Part shown: positions 2,114 through 60,731 of the stretch, piece after piece
How positions within the stretch are numbered: position 1 is the first letter of the stretch
Layout: each line of letters begins with the position of its first letter
NCBI GenBank assembly: GCA_036245525.1
Contig: BTPG01000005.1
Location: forward strand, 62,001 to 126,000
Source: Semisulcospira habei
Taxonomy: Eukaryota; Mollusca; Gastropoda; Semisulcospiridae
Reading direction: 5' to 3'
DNA length: 64,000 bases
The notes under the pieces: model-generated
What the model saw: only the letters and a program-made list of their open reading frames with translations
Database searches by the model: none
What the model was told of the DNA's origin: nothing
Program-made: the position numbers and the translations under genes

Positions 2114-2219
2114 GTAAAGTAATGGTAGATAGTCAAGTCAAGTCAGAAATCTTTATTTATCCCACGAAGGGGCAATGCCAGTTTGGACGGGAGCATATAA
2201 AGATGTAAACTGAAAGTAA

Positions 2220-5451: not shown

Positions 5452-5716
5452 GTAAGGTCTCGGGTGATACCTGAGCCGGCCATTTCGACCGGTTTCGGTC
5501 TGACTCGAAGGGGTTGCCTTTGGCGCCTTTTTCTTAGAGAGTAGCCCTATAGTGCGGTGTTACGCTGCTTTCGATTTTATCGTGAGCCCTTTGTTATTTT
5601 TGTTTTTCGGGTTCGTTCCCGGTCGTTGTCGCGTTTTTGTTTTTGGTGCTACTAACGGCAAGAATGAGACGGATGGGACGCGGCCTGGCCTTTCACGGTT
5701 CTCGTTTTTGTTGCAG
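5452..5716 (+). other. Predicted leader intron in DIRS ORF1 (copy B)
   Basis: ATG-AG is followed by GTAAGGTCTCGG; the acceptor is TTTTTGTTGCAG. Joining the two sides gives M-S-A-Q-L-C-T-C-P-R-C, in frame with the Cys-rich ORF1 start. The same arrangement occurs in copies C, D and F. Confidence 0.75.
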
Positions 5717-9658: not shown

Positions 9659-9737
9659 AGGCCTGGAGGTTGTGCGGTCAGCTCTCACTGCTAGAGGCTT
9701 CTTGCGTGCAGCAGTGGAGGCAATCGTTGCGGCCCGC

Positions 9738-11992: not shown

Positions 11993-12880
11993 CTATCAGT
12001 AATGCCATCAGTAATGAAATCGGTAGCTAGACATGTCTTCCTATCAGTAATGCCATCAGTAATGAAATCGGTAGCTAGTCGTGTCTTTCTATCAGTAATG
12101 CCATCAGTAATGAAATCGGTAGCTAGACGTGTCTTCCTATCAGTAATGCCATCAGTAATGAAATCGGTAGCTAGACGTGTCTTCCTATCAGTAATGCCAT
12201 CAGTAATGAAATCGGTAGCTAGACGTGTCTTCCTATCAGTAATGCCATCAGTAATGAAATCGGTAGCTAGTCGTGTCTTCCTATCAGTAATGCCATCAGT
12301 AATGAAATCAGTAGCTAGACGTGTCTTCCTATCAGTAATGCCATCAGTAATGAAATCAGTAGCTAGACGTGTCTTCCTATCAGTAATGCCATCAGTAATG
12401 AAATCAGTAGCTAGACGTGTCTTCCTATCAGTAATGCCATCAGTAATGAAATCGGTAGCTAGACGTGTCTTCCTATCAGTAATGCCATCAGTAATGAAAT
12501 CGGTAGCTAGACTGTCTTCCTATCAGTATTGCCATCAGTAATGAAATCGGTAGCTAGACTGTCTTCCTATCAGTATTGCCATCAGTAATGAAATCGGTAG
12601 CTAGACTGTCTTCCTATCAGTATTGCCATCAGTAATGAAATCGGTAGCTAGACTGTCTTCCTATCAGTATTGCCATCAGTAATGAAATCGGTAGCTAGAC
12701 GTGTCTTCCTATCAGTATTGCCATCAGTAATGAAATCGGTAGCTAGACTGTCTTCCTATCAGTATTGCCATCAGTAATGAAATCAGTAGCTAGACGTGTC
12801 TTCCTATCAGTATTGCCATCAGTAATGAAATCGGTAGCTAGACGTGTCTTCCTATCAGTAATGCCATCGGTAAGTATTTT
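11993..12880. repeat. 48-bp satellite built from the DIRS terminal core (copy B)
   Basis: About 18 units contain CAGTAATGCCATCAGTAATG and GAAATCGGTAGCTAGACGTG. The unit is the complement of the outermost left arm of the same element (GATGTCATTACTGATAGG then ACACGTCTAGATACCGATTT). The array occupies the place where other copies have the ICR and right arm, and it ends in the normal right terminus. Confidence 0.9.
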
Positions 12881-12988
12881 TCGAAAAAATACATTTTAGA
12901 GAAAAATTCATTTTTGTTTCTGAAATCTTTGTTCACTCAATGACCAAAAGCCCAAACCGTCCAAGAAACAGCGATACAAATTGGGCTT

Positions 12989-16412: not shown

Positions 16413-16876
16413 GCTCTGCAACAACGGAGCACATTGTTTCCTCAAAACACATTACCGATGACATGACTAACTGGAAATAGTCTACTTGCTTACCAATTTT
16501 AGCCTAAGACCCAAAGGGTCCCCACCAGGAGGCTCTCGGGGATCCCTGACAGGGACGAGAGAGCTTTCGGGGATCCCTAACAGGGACGAGAGTAGCCTCC
16601 CCTGCCCATCCGGTCAGGCGCCAGGTGGTGTCTCCTTTAGCCAGTTGTCTACTTCGCTGTTAGCGTTCGGACGCTTTTACCTGAGCCTCTGACCCTTGGA
16701 AAGACTGTGTACGGTTCGACCGTCCCTTGCCGGCCTGCCTTCGCCTTGCCTCTCGTCTACTGCTTCTGGCGTGGCCTCCGTCTTCTCTGCTAGCCCTCGT
16801 CTGTGCCTCGTGCTCTTGGCTGGCCCTGGAACCTTCTAGGCTCCCGTCGTCGTCTCCCTGCCATTCCGATGGACAG

Positions 16877-17607
16877 GTAATGTCTCGGCCGTTTCCGACG
16901 TCTCGCCTGGCTGGGTCGGACGTCGGGCTTCGCTCGAGCTACTGTTGGTTTCTCTCCGCATTTCACGGTGAGTTTCGAGTGTTTCTTGATTTCAAAGCTT
17001 TATATGGCGGGGTTCGTTACCCGCCCCCGGTCGCCTTTCATGTTTGGGTATGGGCTGCAGTTTTCTAGTGCGCCTCTCCCCAGTACGTCGACCTCCAGTG
17101 ACCTACTGTCTGGTACTTTGTGCTTCGTCACTCTGCCGTTCCGCCATGGAAAGGTGGAGTATCGGCCACTTCCTACGTCTCGCCTGGCTGGGCCGGACGT
17201 CGGGCTTCGCTCGAGCTACTGTTGTTTGTCTTTGCATTCACTGTCAGTTTCGCGTGTCTCTTAATTTTCGAAGCTTTAAATGGCGGGGGTTGTTACCCGC
17301 CGCTGGTCGCCTTTCATGTTTGGGTTTGGGTTGCAGTTGCCAAGTGCGCCTCTTCCCAGTTCGGCGACTTCCAGTGACCTAGTGTCCGGTGCTTTGTGCT
17401 TCATCACTCTGCAGTTCCGCCATGTAAAGGTAAAGTCTTGTCCGCTACCTACGTCTCCCCCGGCGGGGCCGGACGTCGTGCTTGGCTCGGACTTGTTTGT
17501 TTTCTCTCCGCATTTAACGGTGAGTTTTGCTCGTTAATTCGGAGCTTTATCTGGCGGCGTTAGTTGCCCGCCGCCCGTCACCTTTCATGTATGGGTATGT
17601 GTTGCAG
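16877..17607 (+). other. Expanded ORF1 leader intron with tandem repeat (copy C)
   Basis: ATG-GAC-AG is followed by GTAATGTCTCGG; the last acceptor is GTATGTGTTGCAG. Joining gives M-D-S-T-K-C followed by GGFQWPG, similar to other ORF1 starts. The interval contains about three copies of a unit of some 290 bp (for example CTTTCATGTTTGGGTATGGG at 17036 and a relative at 17314), each with its own ATG, donor-like and acceptor-like sites. Confidence 0.65.
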
Positions 17608-22462: not shown

Positions 22463-22743
22463 GAGGTCTCGCCCTCCTCCCCGCTTGCCGCTGGTAACTC
22501 CGTAGACAACTGGCTAAAGGAGACACCACCTGGCGCCTGACCGGATGGGCAGGGGAGGCTACTCTCGTCCCTGTTAGGGATCCCCGAAAGCTCTCTCGTC
22601 CCTGTCAGGGATCCCCGAGAGCCTCCTGGTGGGGACCCTTTGGGTCTTAGGCTAAAATTGGTAAGCAAGTAGACTATTTCCAGTTAGTCATGTCATCGGT
22701 AAGTATTTTTCGAAAAAATACATTTTAGAGAAAAATTAATTTT

Positions 22744-22783
22744 TGCTTAGTAGCTGGCGCGGGACTAAGCTCACTCATGCAGC
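22744..22783. repeat. Palindrome family 4, right arm
   Basis: GCTTAGTAGCTGGCGCGGGA and CTAAGCTCACTCATGC complement 16366-16412. Confidence 0.75.
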
Positions 22784-24367: not shown

Positions 24368-24547
24368 GTCTTAGTAACTGACTTCAAGACAAATTCCAAT
24401 GTTTTTATTGTTTTGTACATGGAAACATATGGCAATAAACTATCTTATCTTATGTCCCCCTTGCACATGTAGTGATCGGGGACAAGCAAGTTTACTGGAG
24501 ATATCATTTTTTAACTTAACTTTCGAATTTGGAAAAAAGGATTTTAC
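24129..24547. other. Intron with a GT microsatellite
   Basis: A GT run of about 14 dinucleotides lies at 24333-24361. Nothing coding is seen. Confidence 0.6.
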
Positions 24548-25470
24548 TCATTTCAGTTGTTTGCACTGTCACCCAGTACACAGCTAAATAAACATGTGGT
24601 GTGCTCTAGTTACATAGTGACTTAAATATACATTTCAGTTGTTTGCACTGTCACACATGTACACAGCTAAATAAACATGTGGTGTGCTCTAGTTACATAG
24701 TGACTTAAATATACATTTCAGTTGTTTGCACTGTCACCCAGTACACAGCTAAATAAACATGTGGTGTGCTCTAGTTACATAGTGACTTAAATATACATTT
24801 CAGTTGTTTGCACTGTCACCCAGTACACAGCTAAATAAACATGTGGTGTGCTCTAGTTACATAGTGACTTAAATATACATTTCAGTTGTTTGCACTGTCA
24901 CCCATGTACACAGCTAAATAAACATGTGGTGTGCTCTAGTTACATAGTGACTTAAATATACATTTCAGTTGTTTGCACTGTCACCCATGTACACAGCTAA
25001 ATAAACATGTGGTGTGCTCTAGTTACATAGTGACTTAAATATACATTTCAGTTGTTTGCACTGTCACCCAGTACACAGCTAAATAAACATGTGGTGTGCT
25101 CTAGTTACATAGTGACTTAAATATACATTTCAGTTGTTTGCACTGTCACCCATGTACACAGCTAAATAAACATGTGGTGTGCTCTAGTTACATAGTGACT
25201 TAAATATACATGTCAGTTGTTTGCACTGTCACCCAGTACACAGCTAAATAAACATGTGGTGTGCTCTAGTTACATAGTGACTTAAATATACATTTCAGTT
25301 GTTTGCACTGTCACCCAGTACACAGCTAAATAAACATGTGGTGTGCTCTAGTTACATAGTGACTTAAATATACATTTCAGTTGTTTGCACTGTCACCCAT
25401 GTACACAGCTAAATAAACATGTGGTGTGCTCTAGTTACATAGTGACTTAAATATACATTTCAGTTGTTTG
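24548..25470. repeat. 82/83-bp satellite, first block
   Basis: Units contain CATTTCAGTTGTTTGCACTG and CTAAATAAACATGTGGTGTG. Two variants differ at CCCATGTACAC versus CCCAGTACAC. The block runs without change of phase into the LINE insertion at 25482. Confidence 0.95.
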
Positions 25471-25515
25471 CACTGTCACCCCCTCTCTCTTGGCTTGACT
25501 TCGCGAACGAAGATT

Positions 25516-27669
25516 TTATAGGAGTTGCCCACGACGTCTGCAGGCTTGTTCGTGGCTGCGGAGGCCAATCCGAGACAGGCAGGTTCGACCGCAGTGGCTG
25601 CAGGGGAAGGTATGGCCAGGGTTCTGAGCTGCGGCATCTCTGTTTTTTCTCCTGAGCCGCTTGTCCTTAAGGCTAGCTCTGTGAGAGTCCTCAAAGGAGA
25701 CAGCTGCCTTGTAAATGGTGGAGCGCCAGGTGTCACGGTCCGCAGCAAGCGAAGACCACTGGTGGTGGTCGATTTGGCAGGCACTAAGTGACTTCTTGAG
25801 ACAGTCTTTGTATCTCTTCTTTGGTGCCCCTCTGTCACGGTGTCCAGTAGCAAGCTCGCCGAACAGGGTGATCTTTGGTAGGCGATGATCCTCCATCCTG
25901 GAGACATGCCCCGCCCAGCGGAGCTGTGTCCGCAGCAGCAAAGCCTTGATGTTCACAGTTTCAGCCTGTTCAAGGACCTCGACGTTGGTGACATAGTCAC
26001 TCCAGTGAATGCCCAGGATGGTACGCAGGCAGCGCTGGTGGAAGCGTTCGAGGAGTCGTAGTTGGCTGTGGTAGAGGGCCCAAGACTCGGAACCATACAG
26101 CAGGGTGGTGAGGACCACAGCTCTGTACACGCTGATCTTGGTGCCTGTTTTCAGCTGTTGATTGTGCCACACCCGCTTGAAAAGTCGCCCGAAAGCGCTG
26201 TTCGCTTTTGCCAGCCTGCTGTCAAGCTCCTTGTCCAGCTTGGCGTCCGACGTGATAATGCAGCCAAGGTAAGTAAACTGGTGCACTGACTTTAGTTCAG
26301 ACTCGCCAATGGTGATGTGAGGAGGGCGATACACTGTCTTGGGTGCCGGCTGATGGAGGACCTCTGTCTTTTTCAGACTGACCTCGAGTCCAAAGAGCTG
26401 GGCAGCATCTGCGAAGCAAGACGTGATGCGCTGCAGGGCTCTCTCTGTGTGTGCAACGAGGGCAGCATCATCAGCAAAAAGCAGCTCACGAATCAGTTGG
26501 TCTAGGGTTTTCGTGTGGGCCTGCAGTCGTCTAAGGTTGAACAGGCTGCCATCGAGACGATACCTGATGTACACTGCATCGTCATCATCGAGGTCCACTG
26601 TGGCCTGCTTCAACATCATGCTAAAAAAGATGGTGAAGAGGGTCGGTGCCAGCACGCAGCCCTGCTTTACGCCGTTGAGAATAGGGAATGGTTCTGAGAG
26701 ATCATTGTTGAGTCTGACCTGGCCTTGCTGGTCCTCGTGTAGCTGGACAATCATGTTGAGGAACTTTGGGGGACAGCCAAGTCGCTCCAGGATCTGCCAC
26801 ATGCCTTGCCTGCTCACAGTGTCGAACGCTTTTGTTAGGTCGACAAATGTTACGTACAGCCCTTTGTTCTGCTCGCGGCACTTCTCCTGCAGCTGTCTCA
26901 GCACAAAGACCATATCGGTGGTGCTCCTGTTTGCTCTGAAGCCACACTGGCCCTCTGGGAGTTGGTCTTCAGCGATGGCAGGTACCAGCCGATTCAGGAG
27001 CAGCCTTGCAAGGATTTTCCCAGCAATGGACAGCAGGGTAATTCCCCGATAGTTGGAACAGTCAGACTTCTCGCCTTTGTTCTTGTACAGGGTGATAACG
27101 ACTGCATCACGGAGATCTTTTGGTAGTGTTCCTTCCTCCCAGCAGCAGAGAAAGAGGTCATGGAGCTTGTTGTGCAGTGCTGTGCCTCCATGTTTCCAGA
27201 TCTCTGGCGGTATTCCATCAATGCCTGCTGCTTTGCCACTCTTGAGCTGGTGGATGGCTGTGAGGGTCTCTTCAGCGGTGGGCGGTTCGTCCAATTCAAC
27301 CTTTACTGGGAGGTGTGGGATTTGTAGGACGACTGCTTCTTGAACAGTGCGCTCAGCGCTGAAGAGGCTCTGAAAGTATTCCGACCAGCGGTTCAAGATG
27401 GAAGTATTATCTGTGAGGAGTGCCTGGCCATTCGCGCTTCGCAGGGGACTTTGTACCAGGTGCCTGGGGCCATACACTGCTTTCAGTGCTTCGTAGAAGC
27501 CCCTGTAGTCACCATTGTCAGCACAAAGCTGGGTCCTCTGTGCAAGTCTGGTCCACCACTCATTCTGGAGATCTCTGAGCTTGCGCTGGAGACTGCTGCA
27601 GATGAGGCGGAAGGCAGATTTCTTCACAGGGCAGGAAGGCTGGGCTAGGTGGGCCTGATGGGCGGCTCT
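25516..27669 (-). CDS. LINE reverse transcriptase, intact C-terminal part
   Basis: A stop-free frame of about 715 codons encodes the reverse transcriptase of a non-LTR retrotransposon. From its N-terminus, GKAAGIDGIPPEIWKH, SNYRGITLLSIAGKILARLL and GFRANRSTTDMVFVLRQLQ are RT motifs; ELLFADDAALVAHTE holds the catalytic FADD. After the palm come the LRWAGHVSRMEDHRLPK segment seen in many animal LINEs and a terminal C2H2-like finger, FPCSHCGRTCLSRIGLRSHE. The endonuclease is missing because of 5' truncation. The clade is uncertain (RTE- or I-like). Absence of stops suggests a young insertion. Confidence 0.9.
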   Translation of the reverse strand, partial: RAAHQAHLAQPSCPVKKSAFRLICSSLQRKLRDLQNEWWTRLAQRTQLCADNGDYRGFYEALKAVYGPRHLVQSPLRSANGQALLTDNTSILNRWSEYFQSLFSAERTVQEAVVLQIPHLPVKVELDEPPTAEETLTAIHQLKSGKAAGIDGIPPEIWKHGGTALHNKLHDLFLCCWEEGTLPKDLRDAVVITLYKNKGEKSDCSNYRGITLLSIAGKILARLLLNRLVPAIAEDQLPEGQCGFRANRSTTDMVFVLRQLQEKCREQNKGLYVTFVDLTKAFDTVSRQGMWQILERLGCPPKFLNMIVQLHEDQQGQVRLNNDLSEPFPILNGVKQGCVLAPTLFTIFFSMMLKQATVDLDDDDAVYIRYRLDGSLFNLRRLQAHTKTLDQLIRELLFADDAALVAHTERALQRITSCFADAAQLFGLEVSLKKTEVLHQPAPKTVYRPPHITIGESELKSVHQFTYLGCIITSDAKLDKELDSRLAKANSAFGRLFKRVWHNQQLKTGTKISVYRAVVLTTLLYGSESWALYHSQLRLLERFHQRCLRTILGIHWSDYVTNVEVLEQAETVNIKALLLRTQLRWAGHVSRMEDHRLPKITLFGELATGHRDRGAPKKRYKDCLKKSLSACQIDHHQWSSLAADRDTWRSTIYKAAVSFEDSHRASLKDKRLRRKNRDAAAQNPGHTFPCSHCGRTCLSRIGLRSHEQACRRRGQLL

Positions 27670-27675
27670 GTGACG

Positions 27676-27909
27676 TTGCCAGCCTTCAGCGTGACGATGT
27701 GAAAGCTGCCTTTCAGACAGATTTAGAGCGCAGGCTCAAAGACACAGCGGACCCAGTAGACTCCTCCCCTGAAACACTTTGGGAACAACTGAAAACTGCT
27801 ATTGCAAAATCCTCTGCAGAAGTCTTGGGTTTCGCCAGAAAGAAGAACAAAGACTGGTTTGACGAAAACGATGTAGAGATCCAGGAACACCTAGCAAAAA
27901 AGAGAGCCG
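27676..27909 (+). pseudogene. Inverted 5' fragment of the same LINE protein
   Basis: The + strand encodes DDVKAAFQTDLERRLKDTAD, then TLWEQLKTAIAKSSAEVLGF and KNKDWFDENDVEIQEHLAKK followed by RAA. This is the segment just N-terminal to the minus-strand RT frame, so it is the inverted arm of the twin-primed copy. Confidence 0.88.
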
Positions 27910-28470
27910 CCCACTGTCACCCAGTACACAGCTAAATAAACATGTGGTGTGCTCTAGTTACATAGTGACTTAAATATACATTTCAGTTGTTTGCACTGTC
28001 ACCCATGTACACAGCTAAATAAACATGTGGTGTGCTCTAGTTACATAGTGACTTAAATATACATTTCAGTTGTTTGCACTGTCACCCATGTACACAGCTA
28101 AATAAACATGTGGTGTGCTCTAGTTACATAGTGACTTAAATATACATTTCAGTTGTTTGCACTGTCACCCATGTACACAGCTAAATAAACATGTGGTGTG
28201 CTCTAGTTACATAGTGACTTAAATATACATTTCAGTTGTTTGCACTGTCACCCATGTACACAGCTAAATAAACATGTGGTGTGCTCTAGTTACATAGTGA
28301 CTTAAATATACATTTCAGTTGTTTGCACTGTCACCCAGTACACAGCTAAATAAACATGTGGTGTGCTCTAGTTACATAGTGACTTAAATATACATTTCAG
28401 TTGTTTGCACTGTCACCCATGTACACAGCTAAATAAACATGTGGTGTGCTCTAGTTACATAGTGACTTAA
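27910..28470. repeat. 82/83-bp satellite, second block
   Basis: About seven units continue between the LINE and the TTAA element. The block ends in TTAA at 28467-28470, which is duplicated at 29492-29495. Confidence 0.95.
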
Positions 28471-28896
28471 AGCTGAGGTGCAATGAGAAAAACCTGCCCA
28501 GCACGTGTTTTAGAAAGACTACAGGACCCAGCTTGGGCCCTGCCCCTAAGTGGGTCAAATCGGATCGTAACTCAGTTGACGGAGTTGGCAACTGCGTATC
28601 CCGAGCTTGCAAAACTCTCGGAAAACGACAGACCACTTCCTGTTGCACGGAAATCATCGCGATTAGCAGATCGGACAACAGCAGACGATTCTGTGACACT
28701 TTGAAACTGACCGACAGCCACGGATTTTACGCGCTGGGGACTATGATGGCAGAATGTACGGCTGTACATGCTGTAAGTATGACTCCTGACACTTTGTAGT
28801 TGTGAACGAATTTTTTCAACACGTACCTCCAGTCCAATATAGGCTAATATAAATAAATAAAGAAGCATTGTGATGTACAACCAATACAGTAAATTG

Positions 28897-28943
<47 letters not shown>

Positions 28944-29491
28944 CGACTGTTTACATAGATGCCAAAAGATACAAGGTCGCCATGGGTCAAGCTGATTTTT
29001 AGTAGCTGCCCTTCGTATGGAGAAAAAAATTTGCTGTAGGCCACTCCAGATGAAAAGATATAACAACAAACACAAAACGACAAATAACCCCTCCTTCCTC
29101 ACCCTTCCGATATCAAATAAGTTTCAGGCTGTACTGTGTAACTTACGGATAGCTCGTCCTGGTCCATATCCAGTGTGCGTCCAGGCAAGGCACAAATGGC
29201 CTGCTCTGTCCGTCGGGTGGTCGAGTGTCGTCTGCTACTGTTGATATCAGTAAAAATATCGCTGGTTTAGATCAGTGATCGCGGTGCACACTCGCTGCAA
29301 ACAGGAAGTGGCCTGTCTTTTTCACGGGAGTTTTGCCAGCACGACCAACGCCGTTGAAAACTCAGTCAACTGAGTAGCAAACCGGTTTGCCGAAGTTAGC
29401 CGAACGTTCACGAAGACAGGGCCCTCGCTGGGTCCTGCACAGTTTTTTTCAAACACGTGCGGGGCGGAGTTTTTTTGACTGTTTCTCAGCT
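28471..29491. mobile_element. Non-autonomous DNA transposon with long inverted repeats and TTAA duplication
   Basis: The ends are AGCTGAG and CTCAGCT, directly flanked by TTAA that interrupts one satellite unit. Roughly 200-base inverted arms can be followed: GCACGTGTTTTAGAAAGACT opposes TTTTTTTCAAACACGTGCGG, and GACAGACCACTTCCTG opposes CAGGAAGTGGCCTGTC. The middle holds a GA microsatellite (28901-28940) and no transposase. TTAA duplication is typical of piggyBac and Kolobok groups; the ends alone do not decide between them. Confidence 0.85.
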
Positions 29492-29495
29492 TTAA

Positions 29496-31822
29496 ATATA
29501 CATTTCAGTTGTTTGCACTGTCACCCATGTACACAGCTAAATAAACATGTGGTGTGCTCTAGTTACATAGTGACTTAAATATACATTTCAGTTGTTTGCA
29601 CTGTCACCCAGTACACAGCTAAATAAACATGTGGTGTGCTCTAGTTACATAGTGACTTAAATATACATTTCAGTTGTTTGCACTGTCACCCATGTACACA
29701 GCTAAATAAACATGTGGTGTGCTCTAGTTACATAGTGACTTAAATATACATTTCAGTTGTTTGCACTGTCACCCATGTACACAGCTAAATAAACATGTGG
29801 TGTGCTCTAGTTACATAGTGACTTAAATATACATTTCAGTTGTTTGCACTGTCACCCATGTACACAGCTAAATAAACATGTGGTGTGCTCTAGTTACATA
29901 GTGACTTAAATATACATTTCAGTTGTTTGCACTGTCACCCATGTACACAGCTAAATAAACATGTGGTGTGCTCTAGTTACATAGTGACTTAAATATACAT
30001 TTCAGTTGTTTGCACTGTCACCCATGTACACAGCTAAATAAACATGTGGTGTGCTCTAGTTACATAGTGACTTAAATATACATTTCAGTTGTTTGCACTG
30101 TCACCCAGTACACAGCTAAATAAACATGTGGTGTGCTCTAGTTACATAGTGACTTAAATATACATTTCAGTTGTTTGCACTGTCACCCATGTACACAGCT
30201 AAATAAACATGTGGTGTGCTCTAGTTACATAGTGACTTAAATATACATTTCAGTTGTTTGCACTGTCACCCATGTACACAGCTAAATAAACATGTGGTGT
30301 GCTCTAGTTACATAGTGACTTAAATATACATTTCAGTTGTTTGCACTGTCACCCATGTACACAGCTAAATAAACATGTGGTGTGCTCTAGTTACATAGTG
30401 ACTTAAATATACATTTCAGTTGTTTGCACTGTCACCCAGTACACAGCTAAATAAACATGTGGTGTGCTCTAGTTACATAGTGACTTAAATATACATTTCA
30501 GTTGTTTGCACTGTCACCCATGTACACAGCTAAATAAACATGTGGTGTGCTCTAGTTACATAGTGACTTAAATATACATTTCAGTTGTTTGCACTGTCAC
30601 CCATGTACACAGCTAAATAAACATGTGGTGTGCTCTAGTTACATAGTGACTTAAATATACATTTCAGTTGTTTGCACTGTCACCCAGTACACAGCTAAAT
30701 AAACATGTGGTGTGCTCTAGTTACATAGTGACTTAAATATACATTTCAGTTGTTTGCACTGTCACCCATGTACACAGCTAAATAAACATGTGGTGTGCTC
30801 TAGTTACATAGTGACTTAAATATACATTTCAGTTGTTTGCACTGTCACCCATGTACACAGCTAAATAAACATGTGGTGTGCTCTAGTTACATAGTGACTT
30901 AAATATACATTTCAGTTGTTTGCACTGTCACCCATGTACACAGCTAAATAAACATGTGGTGTGCTCTAGTTACATAGTGACTTAAATATACATTTCAGTT
31001 GTTTGCACTGTCACCCATGTACACAGCTAAATAAACATGTGGTGTGCTCTAGTTACATAGTGACTTAAATATACATTTCAGTTGTTTGCACTGTCACCCA
31101 TGTACACAGCTAAATAAACATGTGGTGTGCTCTAGTTACATAGTGACTTAAATATACATTTCAGTTGTTTGCACTGTCACCCAGTACACAGCTAAATAAA
31201 CATGTGGTGTGCTCTAGTTACATAGTGACTTAAATATACATTTCAGTTGTTTGCACTGTCACCCATGTACACAGCTAAATAAACATGTGGTGTGCTCTAG
31301 TTACATAGTGACTTAAATATACATTTCAGTTGTTTGCACTGTCACCCATGTACACAGCTAAATAAACATGTGGTGTGCTCTAGTTACATAGTGACTTAAA
31401 TATACATTTCAGTTGTTTGCACTGTCACCCATGTACACAGCTAAATAAACATGTGGTGTGCTCTAGTTACATAGTGTCTTAAATATACATTTCAGTTGTT
31501 TGCACTGTCACCCATGTACACAGCTAAATAAACATGTGGTGTGCTCTAGTTACATAGTGACTTAAATATACATTTCAGTTGTTTGCACTGTCACCCATGT
31601 ACACAGCTAAATAAACATGTGGTGTGCTCTAGTTACATAGTGACTTAAATATACATTTCAGTTGTTTGCACTGTCACCTATGTACACAGCTAAATAAACA
31701 TGTGGTGTGCTCTAGTTACATAGTGACTTAAATATACATTTCAGTTGTTTGCACTGTCACCCATGTACACAGCTAAATAAACATGTGGTGTGCTCTAGTT
31801 ACATAGTGACTTAAATATACAT
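29496..31822. repeat. 82/83-bp satellite, third block
   Basis: About 28 nearly identical units reach to the T-run that serves as the pyrimidine tract for SLX4 exon 8. The TATA and TTAAATATACATT segments make each unit a potential TTAA target. Confidence 0.95.
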
Positions 31823-33389: not shown

Positions 33390-33598
33390 ACTGGTGTGCA
33401 TAGTTATTAGATGACACCTCCAGAATTTGGGAAATAAGCCATTGGGCTGAATGAGTTAACTTAAGCTTGTAAGCCTGATTTGCCTCGTGATGTGGCCATA
33501 GTGGTCTGTTGGGTGTTAAACCCTAATACCAAAGTAACTTGTAAACCTGAGTTGATTTTTTAAAAAGAAATGATGACAGTTGTTTTTTTCATTCACAG

Positions 33599-36468
33599 AC
33601 TTGGTTTGACCGACCTGACTGCTTCTGTCGGCAACCTCCCAACAGTCTCTTCGCAGAACATTACAGCATTAAGTCGGACTTGCAAAAACGAAGAGCCTGA
33701 TGTCCAGAACAACAGTTCTATTATTTCTTTCAATAAAAACTCACGTGATGGTAGTGGTGGTGAGCAAACAGTATTTACTGACACCCCTACAGAAGAGTGC
33801 AGAACAACGTTCCTTGATTCCAACTTGAAAATCAACTCACCTTGCCGACAAGAACAAACTCCAGAAATCCACTCACAGCCTGCTGTTGTAGTGGCAGAAA
33901 ATCTGAACCATGTGGACTCTTTTTTAACCACCAGGGGAAAATCTGCTTCCAAAACTGACGTTTTTGGCAAAAGTGAACAGTCGCCAGCGAAAGCTGCAGA
34001 TTCTTATGGGTTGCTGCAGTCAAGAGGCATAAATTTTCATGAGCCCCTCCGGCCACAGGAGCTCATGAAAATATATGCCTCTTGTGACAAACCAACTGCA
34101 GTCGAGGATGATGCAGCAGAAGTGTCTGTTGCGAATGCGCCTGCAGCAGAAAATTTGGTGCCATCACCCTCTGACACCGATTTCATCAACATCGGCTCCA
34201 GTTTTGAATCCGAGGAAAGCCTGAAAAGTGAAGTTGAGAATGAGGCCCAGGAGCTCGTTAGTTCAGAGCACAAACCTGAAACAAACATGGATACACTTGA
34301 TCACACAGTGCATGAAGACACCCACTCTTCTCCTGTTGGAGATGACAATTTACACCGGCAAGGTCGTGGTTCTCAAAGTCACTATTCCTTAGAAGGTCAG
34401 CAGCCCCCTCAAGGTCAGCAGCTCTCTGAAAGTCAGCTGAGTCAGAGGAAGGATAAACTAAAGTCAGTTTCTTCTGACGTGGAAGATGATGGCGTTTTGA
34501 TGGTGGACAGTGACGGTGATCTTTTTGAAGATGAGATCGATGTCTCCCTTCTGCCCAGTACTCAACAGCTTCTGTCAAGCAAGGAAAGGGTTCCGTCAGG
34601 AAAGTTAGATAGGTTAGATTTAAATAGGGATCTTTTCAAAGTATCATCTCCACATAAAAATAATGTGAACAAAGAAGGACAAATTTCTTTGTCAGATTGG
34701 GCTGAGTTGTGCGCGGGGGCAACGGCGACCAACATTGGCTCGATGAAATCACCAAGTAGTCGTCTTTCACAAAAATTCTGCAAGAGAAAAAGTTCAGAAA
34801 CAGATGATTTTCATTCTGAGACAGATGCCTATTGTCTGTCGCCTAACACCAATCCCATACCAAGGAAACGCAGACAAATCTTATCAACATCAACATCTAT
34901 AGGAAATTGTCCATCTTTCAGTGTGTCGGCTGTTGAATGTCCCGATCGGACATCTCATCTTTCTAGTCCTGCATCAAGAAAGTTCATAACTTCTACGCCA
35001 CAAGCCACAGAGGAACAAGCATCTCAAACAGCAGCCAGAAATGTAGATCAAAACGCACAAACGCATGGGAAAGGCAACGAAGCTGAAGTTTCAAAGTCAT
35101 GGACGATGTCTATCTCAGAAAGTGCCTGTAGTTCTCCTAGTTTTCCAACCAAAAAAATTGATGTCAGAGATGCACGTTCATCAGCAACACCGAGCATTAC
35201 CAAGTCTGGCAGTTTCTTCAGTCCTGCCTCTGTGGTAGAGCAAGATTCATTATATGTGACGCCAGTTGTCGGCCAGAGCAAGACGCGACATACTTTCCAG
35301 TTAGTAACTCCGAGTCAGTCTGCTACCTCTTTAGAACATCAGCAGTTTCAGAGACAGTTATCTCGGTTCTCGCCTTCTGTTAGACTTCACAGGCTGTCTG
35401 GATCTGAGGTTGAGAATGCTGTATCTTCAAAGAAAAGTGTTCAGAATGAAAGAAATGTCACAGACTCAGGAGCAAATTTTGGCAGTGCAGAGTCAGAGTG
35501 TGATTCCAGAAGCGTTAACCCCCTTGTGCATGCAGCCACCGGTACTGTAAACAGTTACGATGGCTGCATGCACAAGGGGATTAAGGATTTTTCAGACAAA
35601 GATGATGGGCAATATCATAAGCCAATAGTAGAAATAAATAGTGACTCTGACATTGAGATCATGGGCACGATTCATCGGGAGGCGCCTCCACCATCACCTA
35701 AATTCTCCAAGCTCTCTTCCAGCCAATCATCAAAACTGTCTTCTAGCCAGCCAACTGCTTTGTCTTGTACCTCTGACCAGTCACCACCTCATTTACATCT
35801 GTGTAGCCAGTCGCCACCTCGTTTGAAGCCACCCAATCGTGCAAGCCAATCACCGCCTTTGTTACAAGCCTCGTTTGGTGAGCAACCACCACCTGAGTTG
35901 CATCTGTCTAACCTGCCTGCTTCAGACAGGCCAACTGTCAGGGAATCCCCGCCTTTGTTGCTTCTTTCTCCGTCTGAACAGTCATCAGATGCGGAGCGGT
36001 CAATGGAATCTCAGCAGTTACCTGAGTGTGAGCAGTCACCGCTGCAATCACCTGAGTGTGAGTTGACAGTTGAATCTGAGCAATCACCACCACAATCACC
36101 TGAGTGTGAGCAATCGCCTGAGCAATCATCTGAGCCTGTGCAATCACCTCCGCAATTAGATCTCACTGATGTACCCAACTCACAAAGGCCAACTGCCAGC
36201 AATTCACCACCATGGTTACAGCCCTCCCAGTCACCACCTCCATCACATCCCCCCAACCTGTCACCACCACGGTTAGATCTCTCCAGCCAACCAACGTCAC
36301 CCGACCACCTCTCTCTGTCATCATCATCAAGACTGTCACAACAAACGAGAGATGTCAATGACTTGAACGTCGGTGGCACAAGGGAAGACGAATCCAATAT
36401 GCTTGGCTGTACCGAGTCCAGTCCTGTTGTTATCCACGATGATGATGCTGATGAGGACGACGGGGCAG
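33599..36468 (+). CDS. SLX4: SLX4 exon 10 of window: end of BTB and long acidic, SPP-rich linker
   Basis: This 2.87-kb exon starts after TCATTCACAG, completes the split Arg codon and reads LGLTDLTASVGNLP, the end of the BTB fold. The rest looks disordered. It holds Ser-rich acidic stretches, hydrophobic-acidic segments that resemble SUMO-interaction motifs (VEINSDSDIEIMG near 35630, SSPVVIHDDDADEDD near 36420), and from about 35690 to 36300 a Pro-rich tract of repeated QSPP and ECEQSP units. The donor CAG/GTAAGG at 36468 leaves one base, which matches exon 11. Two palindromes are embedded in frame (34021-34084 and 35515-35584). Confidence 0.85.
34021..34084. repeat. Palindrome family 2 inside SLX4 coding exon 10
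   Basis: CAAGAGGCATAAATTTTCAT and ATGAAAATATATGCCTCTTG are the arms, with CCCCTCCGGCCACAGGAG near the centre. In frame it encodes SRGINFHEPLRPQELMKIYA followed by SC. The arms differ from each other at very few positions, and the frame stays open across the hairpin. Confidence 0.92.
35515..35584. repeat. Second palindrome inside SLX4 coding exon 10
   Basis: CCCTTGTGCATGCAGCCA and TGGCTGCATGCACAAGGG are perfect complements; TTAACC and GATTAA extend the stem with one mismatch. The loop GGTACTGTAAACAGTTAC is itself partly palindromic. In frame it encodes NPLVHAATGTVNSYDGCMHK. Confidence 0.92.
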
Positions 36469-36526
36469 GTAAGGACATTTTTCAGAATGATAGCCCCTTC
36501 ACAGCTGAGAAAAAGTGGACATGATC

Positions 36527-37695: not shown

Positions 37696-38396
37696 TGCCC
37701 GGCGCACGTATTTCCCAAATTTTGGAGGTGTCATCCAACGACTGTGCACCTGTTGCAGGAGATGGGTCGACCGTGATAATTGTTTCCTCAAAACACATTG
37801 CTGATGACATTACTGTTAGGAATAGTGTCTTAGACTAATTTCAGCCAAAATTGTTGTGTACCTACATGGTAGGGGAGGTAACAAGGGGCGCTATAACCTA
37901 GCCAGTAACCTGAGTAGCCTCCCTTCCATCCCCATCCTGTCACGCGCCCACTGGATTCCCGCCAGTCTGTTTCTTAGCTAGACTGTGGATGGTTGTGTAC
38001 CTTACGTCACTCTTCGGCTGTGTATGGTCTGACTGGTCCTCGTGTGACTTGGACTCTCTTCACTTTCTCTGTGACTAGCTACGTTGTGCGCTGTGCTACG
38101 TTTGGACACCTTACCTGTGGGATTACCTTGTGGGTGTTTCGTGTGGAGTGACTCTAGACTTGGGCGAGACAGCGGCGGACTTGGTGAACCTCTGTCTTGT
38201 TCCCTGGTGCTAGCTACGGCCTGTGCTAAGCTTGGAGCTTACCTGTGGATTACCGGCCTGGAGTGCACTGGACTTGGGCGAGCCTGCAGTGGACTTGGTG
38301 GGGCCTTGACCGGCTGTTTGGTGCATGGCGTCGCTGCTGTGACTTCGTTGGTCTCTTTGACCTTCGTTGGTTCGCTGACTTCTCCGTTATGGCAAG

Positions 38397-38571
38397 GTAA
38401 AACATCGGTTATTGCCCACAACCAGCGCTCAAGGGAAGGGGAAGGAGCGCCGGGCGTCGGCATATGCGTGCACTTGGTTTCGTTTTGTACTCGTTTTTGC
38501 GCGCGGATGCTTGTTTGCAGGCCCACGGGGGCCACACTCGCTCGCCTTTCATTGTTGGCTATGTGTTGCAG
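38397..38571 (+). other. Predicted leader intron in DIRS ORF1 (copy D)
   Basis: ATG-GCA-AG is followed by GTAAAACATCGG, and the acceptor is GGCTATGTGTTGCAG. Joining gives M-A-S-L-Q-V-R-T-C-T-R-C-G-D-F-Q-W-P-S-D, in frame with ORF1. Confidence 0.75.
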
Positions 38572-40740
38572 TCTTCAGGTCCGCACCTGCACGCGATGTG
38601 GGGACTTTCAGTGGCCTAGTGACAAGCATGCCATATGCCTACCCTGCTCCGGCTGTGCCTCCACTCACCTGTGCCTGGTCTGCGCACCCTGGCTGGAAGA
38701 GAAGTGGTCCCAGCTGAGGGTTTCTACCGCCGTAAATGGCGGACACCAGCCCGAGAGCGAGCACCCGCCCCAGCAGCTACCATAGACGGGCCAAGATGTG
38801 TTTCCCCGGCTGTGGTGCCTCGGACGGCAAGGGATAGACCAGTCTCTACCGACTCTAGAGCTTTGGCCGTTTTGTGCGCCCACTCGTTAAGTACTGAGAG
38901 GATCCAGTATGAGTCTGGCCCGCAACGTGCATGCACGACCCACACCCCGGCTAGGAGCCCAGTGGCGGCTTCAGGAATACGGCCCTCCAATATCTCGCCA
39001 TGAGTCCAGCGCAGATGCCCCCACCCGGGTCTGCCCTGGGGGACTTGGGTGGGGTTAGGTATTTTTTAGTTCCCAGGGTCACCCTGGTCAGCCCCACAGG
39101 GTGGGTTTTTCTCTCTATTCTGGGGCATGTGTTTCTGTCTACCCTTTGCCCATTCACCTGTATTTGCCTTTTAAAAACTCTCCCTACTGTCTGCACTGCC
39201 TGTAGCTCTTGATATTGGATGTGTGTTGCTAAATGGTCTTAGCTTTATTTAGCCCCATGTGTTAGGTTTATTTAACGTATTTGACCGGCTGGCGACATAC
39301 ATTCAATGTTCTGTTTTTTTTGTTTTTTTTTCACAAGCAGTGCAGGCACGTCCTGAGAAAGCCTTGTTGCTGTCGGGACGTTAAGCAATGTACAATCAAT
39401 CAATCAATCCAGCGCAGATGTTCGGCGCCCTGCTACAAGGTCAGTGACAGCAGAACATGACCAGACAAGTCTGCTGGACTGACGCACGCCCGCTCGTCGG
39501 ATAGAAGTAAAAGGGACGAGACAGGCTCGCGACGAGATGACACGTCCTGTCTACCCTCCGGTGCGGACAGGCCATTGACTGATAGTTGAACCGAGCGGAC
39601 TCCCGTATCTCGACATCGTTCGCGCTCACGGGACAGGTTGACTCGCCGGCGGACTGCTTCCCGCGTCTCGGATGCATACCTCCAGGTATGACCCAGCCAC
39701 CGTTGATCGTCCGGCCACAGCGCATCCTTCAAAGACGGGACTGACTCCTCGCTCGGCACGGCGCTCGTCACAACGACCTAGACGTTCGGCTTCACTGGCT
39801 AGACATCAACCTTGATGTCACTCCCACTCCAGGCGATCGTGTCGCAGCCGCTCTCCGCGTGACCTCTGGTCAGTACATCGCAGTACGGTCTCTTCGTGGA
39901 AGACCTCGTGGGACTCTTCTTCGGTTCACTCCTTGCGTCACCGCTCCCAGGTGAGAAAGACCCCCCCCCCAGCGCGACGACCACTAGACGGGACACCCCT
40001 AACGAGACTCCTACTCACCGATGTAGCGCAGAATTGGTCTCACGTGGCTTCCCCGCGCGGTTAGAGGATGACGCCCTCAGGAAGACTCGGTGTCGGCACT
40101 TCTCCGGGATGACAGCCCCACTCCGTCCGGACGCTCACGCTCCTTGGATGACGTCGATTTGCAGCCGGCTACCCTGGGCCATAGGTTGGAGACTCTGCGG
40201 TCCCTGGATGAGGCGGTGCATCTCATCGCAGATTCTCCCCCTGCGGAAGACTGCCCACCCTCCCCCCCACTCAAGAGGAAAGCGTCTGCCTTCGTGGTCG
40301 CGGAGCGACAGAACAAGCGTTTCAAGTCTCTCCCCCAGCCTCTTGGATTCCGGGACCTGCGCGATGCGTTCTCCGCTCATCTCCTGCGCGGCTCCTTGGG
40401 TGACGTGGGTTTCTTCTCTGATGCCAGGTGGCCGGCAGACTTGGACATCTCCTTTCGTCAGAGCTGGTATGCTGGTCACTCACAGAGCTTCGCCTGCCCA
40501 CTTCCGAAAGTGGATCCCCCGGCTTTTTCCTTGGGGGCAGCCACCCTCATTCGCAATGCCCTGGCCTCAGCGGGATTCCTGGACCTGGCAACGCAAGCCA
40601 TTGTTCATCGCGTCAAGGACGCTTGGCACCCGTCGATCACACCGCTGTTGGGAGACATGCTAGCTTTGGCGGTCTCGGGTAACCGCGCGGCCTCCGTCAA
40701 CGCCATGGCAGCGGCCGCTAACTGCGACTTGATGCGTTGA
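38572..40740 (+). pseudogene. DIRS ORF1 (Cys-rich N-terminus and gag-like), copy D
   Basis: After the intron the frame reads TRCGDFQWPSDKHAICLPC followed by SGC and LVCAPWLEEKWSQL, the best preserved Cys-rich start together with copy F. It is interrupted by the nested LINE tail at 39018-39407. The gag-like core runs from about 40145: ETLRSLDEAVHLIADSPP, PPLKRKASAFVVAERQNKRF, GFFSDARWPADLDISFRQSW, YAGHSQSFACPLPKVDP, then LATQAIVHRVKDAWHPS, ending at a stop after ANCDLMR at 40738. Function is inferred from position in DIRS elements. Confidence 0.8.
39018..39407 (+). mobile_element. 5'-truncated LINE tail nested in DIRS copy D
   Basis: A 13-bp duplication, TCCAGCGCAGATG, flanks the insert at 39005-39017 and 39408-39420. 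The insert ends in a CAAT repeat after GACGTTAAGCAATGTACAAT, a typical non-LTR 3' end. It must be younger than copy D. Confidence 0.9.
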
Positions 40741-44236: not shown

Positions 44237-44484
44237 GGATGACCCCGCTTGCTGCTGGTCCGCTAAGAAACAGACTGGCGGGAATCCAGTGGGCGCGTGA
44301 CCGAATGGGGATGGAAGGGAGGCTACTCGGGTTACTGGCTAGGTTATTGCACCCCTTGTTACCTCCCCTACCATGTAGGTACACAACAATTTTGGCTGAA
44401 ATTAGTCTAGCTAAGACACTTTTCCTAACAGTAATGTCATCGGTAAGTATTTTTCGAAAAAATACATTTTAGAGAAAAATTAAT

Positions 44485-44575
44485 TTCAAGGACAGTGCCA
44501 GATTAGCTTGGCACCGACAGGCACCAAGCTAATCTTTGAATTATCACGGTCGACCCATCTCCTGCTGTAGAGCGT
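44485..44575. repeat. Family 1 palindrome remainder right of DIRS copy D
   Basis: TCAAGGACAGTGCCAGATTA, a GGCACCGACAGGCACC-like centre and TTGAATTATCACGGTCGACC pair with each other and with the left stub at 37755-37779 (GCAGGAGATGGGTCGACCGT). The unit ends with GGCCTGAATGAGTTAA. Confidence 0.88.
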
Positions 44576-48430: not shown

Positions 48431-49064
48431 ATGGCTTCTTCTGTGTCGAAGACTTGCCGCCGTGCGGGGACTTCAGTGACCGGTTGATGCACTCGACTCT
48501 TGCTTGCCGTGTTCGGGCTGTGCTTCGGACGGAACGTGTGATGGTGGCGCCGCTTGGACGGAAGACCGGTGTTCGCGCAGGTGGGACTTCTTCAGGCGTG
48601 ACCGGTCCCCTCGCCCGCTTCGGTCTCCACGGGATCCTCCACGGGTGGACGTACTTCCCTCGGCGCATCGGGCTTTCCGGCCCACAGGTAAGTCCCCTTC
48701 TTGTACCGTTACCCTCGCAGGTTCTCCCTCCCCTCTCCGAGTCTTCGGAGCAGGGTAGGCGAGTTTCGGAGTCACGCTCCCCACGCTCTGCTTCGTTAGC
48801 GCGTGGCTTGAGCCCATTTTGGTTCCCACCCCCCGCTCTGCTTCGGGCGAGCGGTCTGGGAGAGATGAGCGTTCGTCGGCCACCCCCGGCTCTAGGTCTC
48901 CGGAGCGGGGACGGGTGACGGAACGCAAGCATAAGAAAGAGAGTAAACGTGATAAGAAATGCTCTCGCTCACGCACCGAGGCTTCGGAACGTGACTCGAG
49001 ACCGTTAGTAATGCTGCCTCCCCGCTCTGTATTTTCCGAACGGGCAAGGCATGCTTCGCTTTCT

Positions 49065-54082: not shown

Positions 54083-54557
54083 TGGGAATACACTCTATTG
54101 CCTATAGATTTCAGCAAAATTGTGTGTAGCACACAACTGGGGAGGAGACACCGGGGATCCAAGCACTATGACCCCGGGTGGCCTCCCCTTACTACCCTAT
54201 CCCGGCGAGCACAGGGCGACCTCGTCAGTTTCACACATAGCCACAAGAGGCAAGCGGGGCAGGCGGGAGGGCCATTCGAGTAATGCCATCGGTAAGTATT
54301 TTTCAAAAAAATACATTTTAGAAAAAAAATTCATTTTTTGCGTATTGATACAGTTGTTTGACATGGGGAATGTTATGTATGCTGAAGATTAAAAGAAATG
54401 CTTCAGTGTTTCCAATGACTCAAATGATGCAACTGCAGCTCATGCATGAACATACTGATTGTTCATTTTGTGTTAACATTTTGTTTTATTTTCGTACGTT
54501 TTAAAAAATTTCCTGTTATGTTCTATTCTGTTCTGTTCTCTAATTTGGTGTTTTCAG

Positions 54558-56025: not shown

Positions 56026-56504
56026 CGCCTAGCTAAAATTATCGGGAGTGGGCGCATTGGGAGGGGCCTCGATAGTCGGCTCGCTTCGCGGGTTTTGGGA
56101 GAGTTCCAACTAGCGGCACCCTCCGCCTTTTTGTAATTCCAATTAGTAATGTCATCGGTAATGATTTTGAGAAAATAAATTAATTTTTCTTTAAAATGTA
56201 TTTTTTCGAAAAATACTTACCGATGACATTACTCAGAGGTCCCTCCCTCCTTCCCCGCTTGCCGCAGTGGGGCTAGACTCAGTCACTGGCGGGAAAAGCG
56301 TGAGAGCGCCACCGGATAAGGGAGTACGGGAGACCACTCGGGGTTGCAGGGTTATGGCCCCCCCCCAGTGCTTGCCTCCCTTAGTATGAGGGACACACAG
56401 CAAGTTTTTTTTGGCTAAAATTATGAGCTAAGCGAAGGTTCCAATTAGTAATGTCATCGGTAAGTATTTTTCGAAAAAATACATTTTAAAGAAAAATTAA
56501 TTTT
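56026..56504 (+). mobile_element. DIRS copy G, right end only
   Basis: It starts at the recombinase stop (CCTAGCTAAAATTATCGGGA), includes an ICR at 56140-56234 and a right arm with CCCCGCTTGCCGC in normal orientation, and ends AAAGAAAAATTAATTTT about 20 bases before the SLX4 exon 14 acceptor. The element is 5'-truncated, lacking all coding sequence. Confidence 0.9.
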
Positions 56505-56525
56505 GTTTTCTTATGTGTTTTTCAG

Positions 56526-57892: not shown

Positions 57893-58228
57893 GTCCCGGG
57901 GCGAAATGGGTTAAGCCTGTGGCTGTTGGTTGTGCTTTTGTTTCTTCAAAATTCATACCGATGGCATTACTGTATGGAATACACCTTTAGCTTACCGAAT
58001 TCAGCCTCAAAACCGTTCGTGTTAAAAACACGAAACGGAGCGTCATAGTAGAGTCGTAACCAAGCATCCGGATAGTCTCCCCTCCCTCCATCTGGAAGTG
58101 CATATTCCCGCCAGTTTCACCTTAGCTTCCGGTAGACAAGTTGCGTCGGCTTCAGCCTCCAGCGTTTATCGGATTTCGGAATTTCTTATTCGTGAATTCT
58201 AAACTCTTTGCCTTATAACAATGACGAG

Positions 58229-58408
58229 GTAAGGTCTCGGGTTGTGCCTTCGCAGCCAGCAGAAAATGTTTAGCCGGCAGCGCAGGCACAACTTGAAAGA
58301 AATTGCGGTTCGGGTACAACCGGTTTTCGATTAGTAGTCGTTTCGTGCACGTGGCCTTTCGTTAGTGGCCTCGGGCTTTTACATTCATGTGTGCCTTTTG
58401 TGTTACAG
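58229..58408 (+). other. Predicted leader intron in DIRS ORF1 (copy F)
   Basis: ATG-ACG-AG is followed by GTAAGGTCTCGGG; the acceptor is CCTTTTGTGTTACAG. Joining gives M-T-S-T-Q-L-H-T-C-R-R-C-K-G-F-Q-W-P-S-D, continuous with ORF1. Confidence 0.78.
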
Positions 58409-60731
58409 TACCCAACTGCACACTTGTCGCCGCTGCAAAGGTTTCCAGTGGCCCTCAGACACGCACGCACGCTGTTTACCTTGTTCTGGCTGTTCATCGT
58501 CCCACCCTTGTGGTGTGTGCGCCTCGTGGAAGGAACGGAAATGGTCCCAGCTGTGGGAGTTTTATGGGCGCCGACGACCAGCGGAACAGATTAGACATAG
58601 AGCCGCTCGGCCGTCAACCAAAGAGAGCAACATACCTCATCACCGGACGGAGCCAGGCCCTTCGGTGACAGTTTCTTTTTGCCCCACAGCGCCGCTCTTA
58701 CAAGCTTCTACAGAGAAGGTAGGCTCTCATTCTATTACTAAGTCGCAGAACCCTATCCCGATTGCAAGTCCCCGAATTGTGGGGAGTGGGATGTTGGCCT
58801 GGCAGTCTCAGATGGTCCCCAAGTATCGGTGACAGACTCCTTCGACCCCTTCTACAGAGAAGGTAGGCTCTCATTCTATTACTAAGTCGCAGAACCCTAT
58901 CCCGATTGCAAGTCCCCGAATTGTGGGGAGTGGGATGTTGGCCTGCGCAGTCTCAGATGGTCCCCAAGTATCGGTGACAGAGACTCCTTCGACCCCTTCT
59001 ACAGAGAAGGTAGGCTCTCATTCTATTACTAAGTCGCAGAACCCTATCCCGATTGCAGGTCCCCGGCATGTGGGGAGTGGGATGTTGGCCTGCGCAGTCT
59101 CAGATGGTCCCCAAGTATCGGTGACAGAGACTCCTTCGACCCCTTCTCTCGGCCTTTCGGTTGAAGCGTCGGGGACCAATCAGAAGCGGACAGCCTATGA
59201 GGCTACTGACGCAGTACGGCTTTCATCTCACAGCCCTCGGCGCTCAGAGGTTAGTCTCCATTCCCACAGAGACAATTATTCTACGTCACATCAGTCACCT
59301 AGGACCCGACACACTGGTTCCCCCGCTCGTTCACGGACAAGTTTTTTTACCACAGGGAGTCGTCTAGCTCGGACACATTCGTCGAGCACATCATTTGGGC
59401 ACCGTAGACCGTATTCCCCACAGCAACGGCCGCGGTCCCAGACAAGTCGACTTCTGGATAAGGAGAGACGTTCCTCTCGTCGCTCCCCCTCCAGCAACTG
59501 GCTCCATCGTCATTTTCCTACTGCGCATTCTTATTCACCCCAAAGTCCTCTGCGTCGGTTCACGACGGCTTCGCGAGACAGATCCTTTGGAACCCCACCG
59601 CACTGGACACCTCCGCGGCATGGCGGATCCTGTCAGCATTCTCCGGACCCTGCGACTTATGACTCAGTCTGCACCCGGAAGACTCGGCGTCGGCCCTGCT
59701 GGAGCCAAAGACACCTTCGGACCCACGTAGCCCTCCCGCTTCCGACTTAGTAGAAGAGCTGCCCCTGCTTTCAGAGACTTCTCGGGCTCTAGACGAAGCG
59801 GCACACATCATCGCGACCATTCTTCCTTTGGACGCATGTCCACCTTCACCCCCACTCAAGAGGAAAGCTACGGCTTCAGTGGACGCTCCTTTCCAGGCGA
59901 AAAGATTCAAGTCCCTTCCCCAGCCTCCAGGTTTTCAGGACCTTTCTGACGCTTTCTCCGAACACCTACGACAGGGCAAGCTGCGTGATAAAGGTTTCTT
60001 CGCGGACTCACAGTGGCCCGCTGACATTGACATCCGTTTTCAGCAGAAGTGGTATGCGGGTCACTCTCAAGCCTTCATCTGCCCCCTCCCAGCGGTGGAT
60101 CCTGAAGCCGAACTCCAGGCAGGTGGCCCAGGACCGGTGCGACGTTTCTTCCCACCTGGACTTGAACCCACAGCTACTTTGATCCGGAATTCCATCGCGT
60201 GTACGGGCTTCTTAGATCTAGCTACGCAGGCGGTAGTCCGTGGAGTACAGGAGTTTTGGGGACCGACCCAGTGAGCAGAAATTACGAGATATCCACTCCT
60301 TGGCAGTAACGGCGAATCGGGCAGTACACCATTCGGCCACCAACGCTATCGCGGCAGCAGCTAACTGTGATCTTATGCGGCGTGACGCGGTCTTGCGATC
60401 TTGCCCTGGAATTCCTTCGACCTTCGCCACACAATTACGCCGGGCTCCGCTGGGCGGTTCGTTCCTCTTTGGTCCCTCTTGGCAGGAGGTGAAGACGGCT
60501 GCGAAGGACTTGTGGCCTAGCGTTAACAGAAGGGAACTTTCCAGATTTCCAGCCGGCCGCAAGGATGAGGGTCGCACCCTGCGGACCTTTAGACCCACCT
60601 CTCGTCTTATCACCAGACGTCCCTTTAGGACCAGACAGCAGGCCCCAGCTAGCCGTGGACACTTTTTCCCCGCACGGACCTCCTCCCGTCCCAGCTTCGG
60701 CCGGAAGCAATGGGGGGGTAGGGCCCAATGA
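58409..60731 (+). pseudogene. DIRS ORF1 (Cys-rich N-terminus and gag-like), copy F
   Basis: The Cys-rich start is complete: TCRRCKGFQWPSDTHARC, LPCSGCSSSHPCGVC and WKERKWSQLWEF, with at least eight Cys that could bind zinc. A 147-bp unit is repeated three times at 58707-59140. The first unit has a compensated -1/-2 shift with TGA at 58830. A Ser/Arg-rich stretch follows, then SLHPEDSASALLEP, PPLKRKATASVDAPFQAKRF, GFFADSQWPADIDIRFQQKW and YAGHSQAFICPLPAVDP. A one-base shift near 60265 separates the last part (IHSLAVTANRAVHHS, ANCDLMRRDAVL) which ends at 60731. It is presumed to be the structural protein. Confidence 0.82.
58707..59140 (+). repeat. 147-bp tandem triplication in ORF1 (copy F)
   Basis: Units start near 58707, 58851 and 58998 with TCTACAGAGAAGGTAGGCTC. 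The 49-residue unit includes EKVGSHSITKSQNPIPIA and keeps frame, except that the first unit lost three bases at two places. Confidence 0.93.

Follow-up and report, generated by a model that had tools for sequence, protein, structure and literature searches.

Once spliced RNA is copied back into DNA, a retroelement is expected to lose its introns. Penelope-like elements, which belong to a different class, retain spliceosomal introns through transposition.

DIRS-type elements, exemplified by DIRS-1 of Dictyostelium, carry inverted terminal repeats, a reverse transcriptase, a tyrosine-recombinase-like end and a separate gag-like ORF1 (PMC5633606), an organization that the elements described here from the gastropod Semisulcospira habei share, with a candidate recombinase-like end. 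DIRS-1 is laid out in three partly overlapping ORFs, whereas one of the copies studied here (copy F) holds the reverse transcriptase and the recombinase-like part in a single frame; moreover, the available text on DIRS-1 mentions no native intron, whereas a conserved leader intron is predicted here in the ORF1 of several families (PMC5633606). The accessible portions of two further accounts hold nothing on introns in DIRS ORF1 (PMC12477816; PMC5890265), and a search of the open-licence PMC literature, as far as its available sections extend, met no account of DIRS elements with an intron in the ORF1 leader.

A functional parallel comes from another superfamily. The copia-type element BARE1 has a facultative intron, so that its gag mRNA is spliced while other RNA stays unspliced, and the available text of the same source also names splicing for Ogre, CRR and copia (PMC3735527). 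The point of likeness with BARE1, in our case as a proposal, is that translation and replication draw on distinct RNA pools, but the BARE1 intron measures 104 nt, and when it is removed the frame changes directly behind gag and pol expression ends (PMC3735527), whereas the intron predicted here lies at the start of ORF1 and would supply its start codon. The transcripts of Ogre and CRR, which are plant Gypsy elements, are spliced between ORFs or so as to remove rt, and not at the start of gag (PMC3735527).

DIRS-type elements in the window

The window, that is, the whole 64,000-nt stretch of DNA analysed here, corresponds to BTPG01000005.1:62001-126000, and the genome assembly searched measures 1.98 Gb, with eight large contigs of 178-344 Mb. 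The copies in the window are referred to as B to F. Matches to the RVT_1 profile identify a reverse transcriptase in F (4.3e-20), B (3.4e-14) and D (5.1e-9); the match in copy E (2.1e-6) lies just under the cutoff, and the reverse transcriptase of copy C was assigned through its similarity to F. The Phage_integrase profile matches F at 8.8e-4 with 19.5 bits, below the cutoff of 27.1, and E at 0.09. Inverted terminal repeats, examined in C and D, pair 16452-16652 with 22502-22702 at 100% identity in C and 37831-37978 with 44262-44409 at 97% in D, in keeping with DIRS-type membership. The nearest protein bearing an animal name belongs to another gastropod, Batillaria attramentaria (72% across the first 120 residues). 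The features on which the analysis rests are as follows.

5447-5451, + strand: exon 1 of ORF1 in copy B (ATGAG); of 21 B-family rows, 20 retain the ATG and all 21 the AG
5452-5716, + strand: predicted leader intron of copy B, 265 nt; GTAA in 20 of 21 B-family rows, CAG in 21 of 21
5717-5891, + strand: start of exon 2 in copy B, Cys-rich N-terminus of ORF1, interrupted by a stop in the window copy
16869-16876, + strand: exon 1 of copy C (ATGGACAG), first of three tandem units
16877-17607, + strand: three tandem units in copy C, each comprising exon 1, the intron and the start of exon 2, with 731 nt between the first donor and the last acceptor; same triplication in locus L111 at 98.7% identity
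38389-38396, + strand: exon 1 of copy D (ATGGCAAG)
38397-38571, + strand: predicted leader intron of copy D, 175 nt; GTAA in 27 of 28 D-family rows, TGCAG in 28 of 28
38572-38716, + strand: start of exon 2 in copy D, Cys-rich block, with a third-position excess of change
48431-48463, + strand: intron-free start of copy E (MASSVSKTCRR); this frame is not carried on into the Cys-rich block
58221-58228, + strand: exon 1 of copy F (ATGACGAG)
58229-58408, + strand: predicted leader intron of copy F, 180 nt; GAG/GTAAGG in 30 of 30 F loci, CAG in 27 of 29 parsed
58409-58595, + strand: start of exon 2 in copy F, Cys-rich N-terminus of ORF1; the frame runs for 550 stop-free codons in locus L033
60965-63706, + strand: 914-aa frame of copy F with reverse transcriptase and tyrosine-recombinase-like end (RVT_1 profile match; Phage_integrase match below the cutoff)

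A predicted intron in the ORF1 leader

The first-pass annotation of this DNA had proposed that the ORF1 of copies B, C, D and F is interrupted by a phase-2 intron immediately after its start codon, and that this intron is missing exactly from copy E. The sites themselves stand in all four copies: the ATG is followed by AG/GTAA, a YAG acceptor adjoins the Cys-rich start, the phase is 2 throughout, and joining the two sides yields the in-frame starts MSAQLCTC in B, MDSTK in C, MASLQVRTC in D and MTSTQLHTC in F. The predicted intron would thereby fall inside the first three codons of ORF1, and its removal restores a single frame with a start codon in B, D and F and at the start of C. Among the donor-to-acceptor distances of 175-731 nt given in that annotation, those of B, D and F hold, but the 731 nt of C represents one of several possible pairings of donors and acceptors. 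In copy C, the ORF1 leader between 16862 and 17680 (exon 1, intron and exon-2 start) is arranged in three tandem units that are about 75-81% alike, and since the same triplication recurs in a second genomic copy, L111, the array is older than the dispersal of these two copies at least. The ORF1 frames of the window copies are not all intact, with a stop inside the FQWPSD block of B, another later in ORF1 of F, and a decayed exon 2 in C. In dinucleotide shuffles, run for B, D and F, the full intron model arose in 1 of 2000 (B), 1 of 2000 (D) and 3 of 2000 (F) sequences.

A first look across the genome returned 4166 candidates for family D, 665 for F, 243 for B, 1060 for C and 1138 for E. Forty places were scored per family query, and 28 (D), 21 (B) and 30 (F) of these were aligned or read, the window copy among them in each case; because the intron was part of each query, the samples are biased towards copies that carry it. 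At the ORF1 start, donors and acceptors are conserved in all three samples. In the D family, the only row lacking GTAA carries a deletion, and there is no change in 109 GTAA cells or 140 TGCAG cells, against a rate of 0.041 in the intron body (CpG left out). The B family shows one change in 84 GTAA cells, compared with a rate of 0.070 across the intron body when CpG sites are left out, and in the F family, where L036 was left unparsed, the ATG persists in 28 of 30 loci. Directly beyond the acceptor the pattern is that of coding sequence: exon 2 of D changes at 0.026, 0.018 and 0.078 by codon position (CpG left out), six of the eight near-fixed differences between D subgroups in this exon fall at third positions, and the third-position excess is found in exon 2 of both D and B. 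The 550-codon exon-2 frame of L033 remains open, yet this locus lacks the exon-1 ATG.

Donor, acceptor and phase are therefore conserved within as well as between families, and the exon-2 frame changes like coding sequence. Because the sites are conserved, the coding signature starts directly after the acceptor and F has no other start, the interpretation of the segment as a predicted spliceosomal intron is well supported; its conserved GT-AG ends lie in good context, as expected of introns of this kind. The same sites recur throughout the genome. The donor pattern ATGRCRAGGTAANNYCTCGG has 1,850 exact genome matches (control, 1) and the acceptor pattern TTRCAGTNNNCARSTNCRNACNTGY has 3,334 (control, 0), and among the 54 donors listed, on contig C1 up to 55.5 Mb, 20 are followed by an exact acceptor 152-194 nt downstream, with a chance expectation of about 0.001 each, while the other 34 are without an exact match to the acceptor pattern. 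Donor and acceptor starts are hence kept at well over a thousand places.

Intron-free starts and copy E

ORF1 starts without the intron are also abundant. An ATG placed 15-24 nt before a two-Cys block has 2,101 exact genome matches (control, 0). Among the 15 matches listed, eight are intact intron-free starts, such as MASSVSKTCRLCGDFQW, MADLLRKFCLLCADFQW and MASARMKTCLRCGDFQW, and seven are intron ends; 32 of the first 100 places show the intron-free length of 51. The intact starts among these matches indicate that an intron-free group coexists with the intron-bearing one.

Copy E was reported by the first-pass annotation as having the same start as the other copies without the intron. The start MASSVSKTCRR at 48431 is indeed intron-free and is common to all 30 loci fetched for this family, but its frame does not run into the Cys-rich block in any of those loci, the window copy among them, being broken after CRR and reaching a stop after 18-163 codons. 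In the four E loci examined for this, the Cys-rich frame, followed upstream from the block, meets a stop before any ATG, and the reverse transcriptase is split across frames in the window copy and in both longer loci read. The absence is exact in residue count, since D, E and F all have eight residues ahead of the first Cys, but it is not exact at the level of the letters, which read TCT in E where a spliced junction would read AG/T. With its frames broken, E is unable to show a working loss of the intron.

The segment 48000-54300 places E in a burst family with broken ORF1 and reverse transcriptase frames. Across 221 nt, all 40 scored places of this family match at 99-100%, and identity to locus L063 lies at 97.3-99.9% in 29 loci. 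E is likely to represent a young, non-autonomous burst, presumably spread in trans by the proteins of other copies.

Gain or loss of the intron

Taken together, positions 58229-58408 and their counterparts in B, C and D are probably a GT-AG spliceosomal intron that was gained once in the B/C/D/F lineage and was not lost in E, whose group would never have had it. The origin of E by reverse transcription of a spliced RNA, as advanced in the first-pass annotation, does not find support, since intact intron-free starts are common, E falls outside the intron-bearing copies, if weakly, three distant relatives from one assembly are intron-free, and no spliced copy of F was recovered at up to three mismatches. 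Rooted trees, inferred in four runs, unite the window copies in one clade (support 84-94) and place E outside B/D/F in every run, and not nested among intron-bearing copies as a recent loss would have it; the grouping of B/D/F(/C) without E receives support of 61, 71 and 63, with the fourth run unlabelled. Copy C was kept in a single rooted run, where it falls inside the B/D/F/C clade, and a 45-row tree gives support of 72 to the same split between B/D/F(/C) and E. In an unrooted tree of the five copies, E joins F at 81, an arrangement compatible with a root on the branch of E. The branches of both C and E are long, and given the length of the E branch, its decayed coding sequence and the weak support, the position of E may be an artefact.

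Distant relatives bear on the same question. Three of them (L113-L115), found on stray contigs of one bacterial assembly, have unbroken ORF1 frames without the intron, their first-ATG starts reading MPKSGKSSGRHC, MSKSGKSSAGRHC and MPSSSKPRRC, and a fourth contig from another assembly (L112) ends before any start. Together with the rooted trees, these intron-free relatives favour, weakly, one gain in the B/C/D/F lineage. A search for ORF1 homologues outside the genome returned six candidates, none at E 0.1 or better, and no relatives were found in the viral contigs searched or in a first scan of genome contigs. In L113 (position 350) and L114 (position 465), the donor-like string GGTAAGT occurs as in-frame codons just past the ORF1 ATG, at nearly the same place.

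The main alternative is that the intron was ancestral to all window copies and that the group of E lost it through reverse transcription of a spliced RNA, a history that we regard as rather unlikely. In its favour, E, D and F have equal numbers of residues before the first Cys, the support for the outside position of E is weak, and the spliced-type start M-x-S-x-Q-(V/L)-(R/H/Q)-T-C does have 112 exact genome matches (control, 1), as against 3,334 for the acceptor. These 112 could include true copies of spliced RNA, and some of them may be intron ends of the form ATGNNYAG/T. Against such a loss stand the lack of an intron in the three distant relatives, albeit all from one assembly, the placement of E in all four rooted runs, and the finding that none of the eight intron-free starts read carries the M-x-S-x-Q-V-R-T-C of the intron lineage. 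Furthermore, the 26-letter spliced junction of F, allowing up to three mismatches, has no match in the whole genome (2 Gb). A single gain thus remains the preferred history, and the absence of the intron from E, common to a large group, is likely to be old and not a recent exact loss.

Alternatives to splicing

A different reading dispenses with splicing altogether and has ORF1 begin at an ATG just before the apparent acceptor, with GTAA and YAG conserved for other reasons. In-frame ATGs do lie near the acceptor in D (38561 and 38507), C (17591/17597) and B (5664/5673); in the B family, such an ATG comes ahead of any stop in 20 of 21 rows, and the stretch from this ATG to the acceptor shows a third-position excess (46/374 versus 22/375 and 18/374). 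Of the 29 parsed F loci, however, 24 have the nearby ATG out of frame, the window copy included, and the exon-2 frame of window F, read upstream, runs into a stop without passing an ATG; an extra T brings the ATG into frame in the other five (L026, L029, L031, L032 and L034). Likewise, among the matches listed, the intron-near ATG is in frame in three of the seven intron-type sequences and out of frame in four. With its framing so mixed, the ATG near the acceptor is not a shared feature, whereas the upstream ATG with its donor is. As this reading also leaves unexplained the conserved ATG-x-AG/GTAA and the matching phase in four families, it appears improbable.

Less probable still is that the conserved block is a DNA or RNA leader signal (a promoter, packaging or folding element) with no more than a resemblance to an intron. 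In favour of a signal, GTAA-NN-Y-CTCGG extends past the donor in the window copies of B, C and F (in D it is the column majority, exact in 13 of 28 D rows and not in window D), and the F intron, with a long hairpin at its start, folds better than its shuffles (z -2.14, 6/200). On the other side, folding of the D intron does not exceed that of its shuffles (z 0.82), positions +6 to +12 vary within families nearly as often as the intron body, and an intron accounts for the frames that join and for the acceptor that does not vary.

The likeness between families at 5452-5463, 16877-16888, 38397-38408 and 58229-58240 exceeds what a donor site needs. The long hairpin predicted in F spans 58237-58296 and has no counterpart in D. 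Intron RNA structure was dropped as a candidate shared signal, with shuffles folding as well in 6/200 (F), 12/200 (B) and 163/200 (D) cases, and paired changes in the arms of a D-intron hairpin, assessed by eye, resembled independent CpG decay and were left uncounted.

Which RNA is copied

If the predicted intron is spliced, the element transcript would exist in two forms. The spliced form would provide the Cys-rich, gag-like ORF1 protein with its start codon, and the unspliced form would be the one reverse transcribed. As no spliced copy of F is found in the genome at up to three mismatches, the RNA that returns to it is likely the unspliced one in this family, and may be so in the others. 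The intron might then act as an RNA sorter, with the ORF1 protein made only from spliced RNA and reverse transcription confined to unspliced RNA, so that spliced copies are barred from the genome and the intron survives thousands of insertions; we put this forward tentatively, as possible though somewhat doubtful. That the predicted intron has persisted in well over a thousand insertions hints at a separation between the RNAs that are translated and those that are copied, and the abundance of intron-bearing and intron-free DIRS families in one genome makes both RNA-pool sorting and intron gain directly testable.

Other features of the window

A stretch resembling TCGGTAAGTATTTTTCGAAAAAATACATTTTAGAGAAAAATT is common to the right-end regions of several copies (495-589, 12836-12930, 22665-22759, 44409-44503, 54258-54352 and 56426-56520) and may be an element end or a preferred target. 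Tandem arrays of a 75/85-bp unit occupy 2076-4600, an 86-bp array lies at 9659-11076 within the reverse transcriptase-recombinase region of copy B, and long arrays of an 82-83-bp unit, interrupted by other sequence, extend over 24457-31600. On the minus strand, 25519-27735 holds a 739-codon reverse transcriptase frame of another retroelement (RVT_1, 3.2e-35), and a 986-codon frame without a Pfam match spans 33564-36524.
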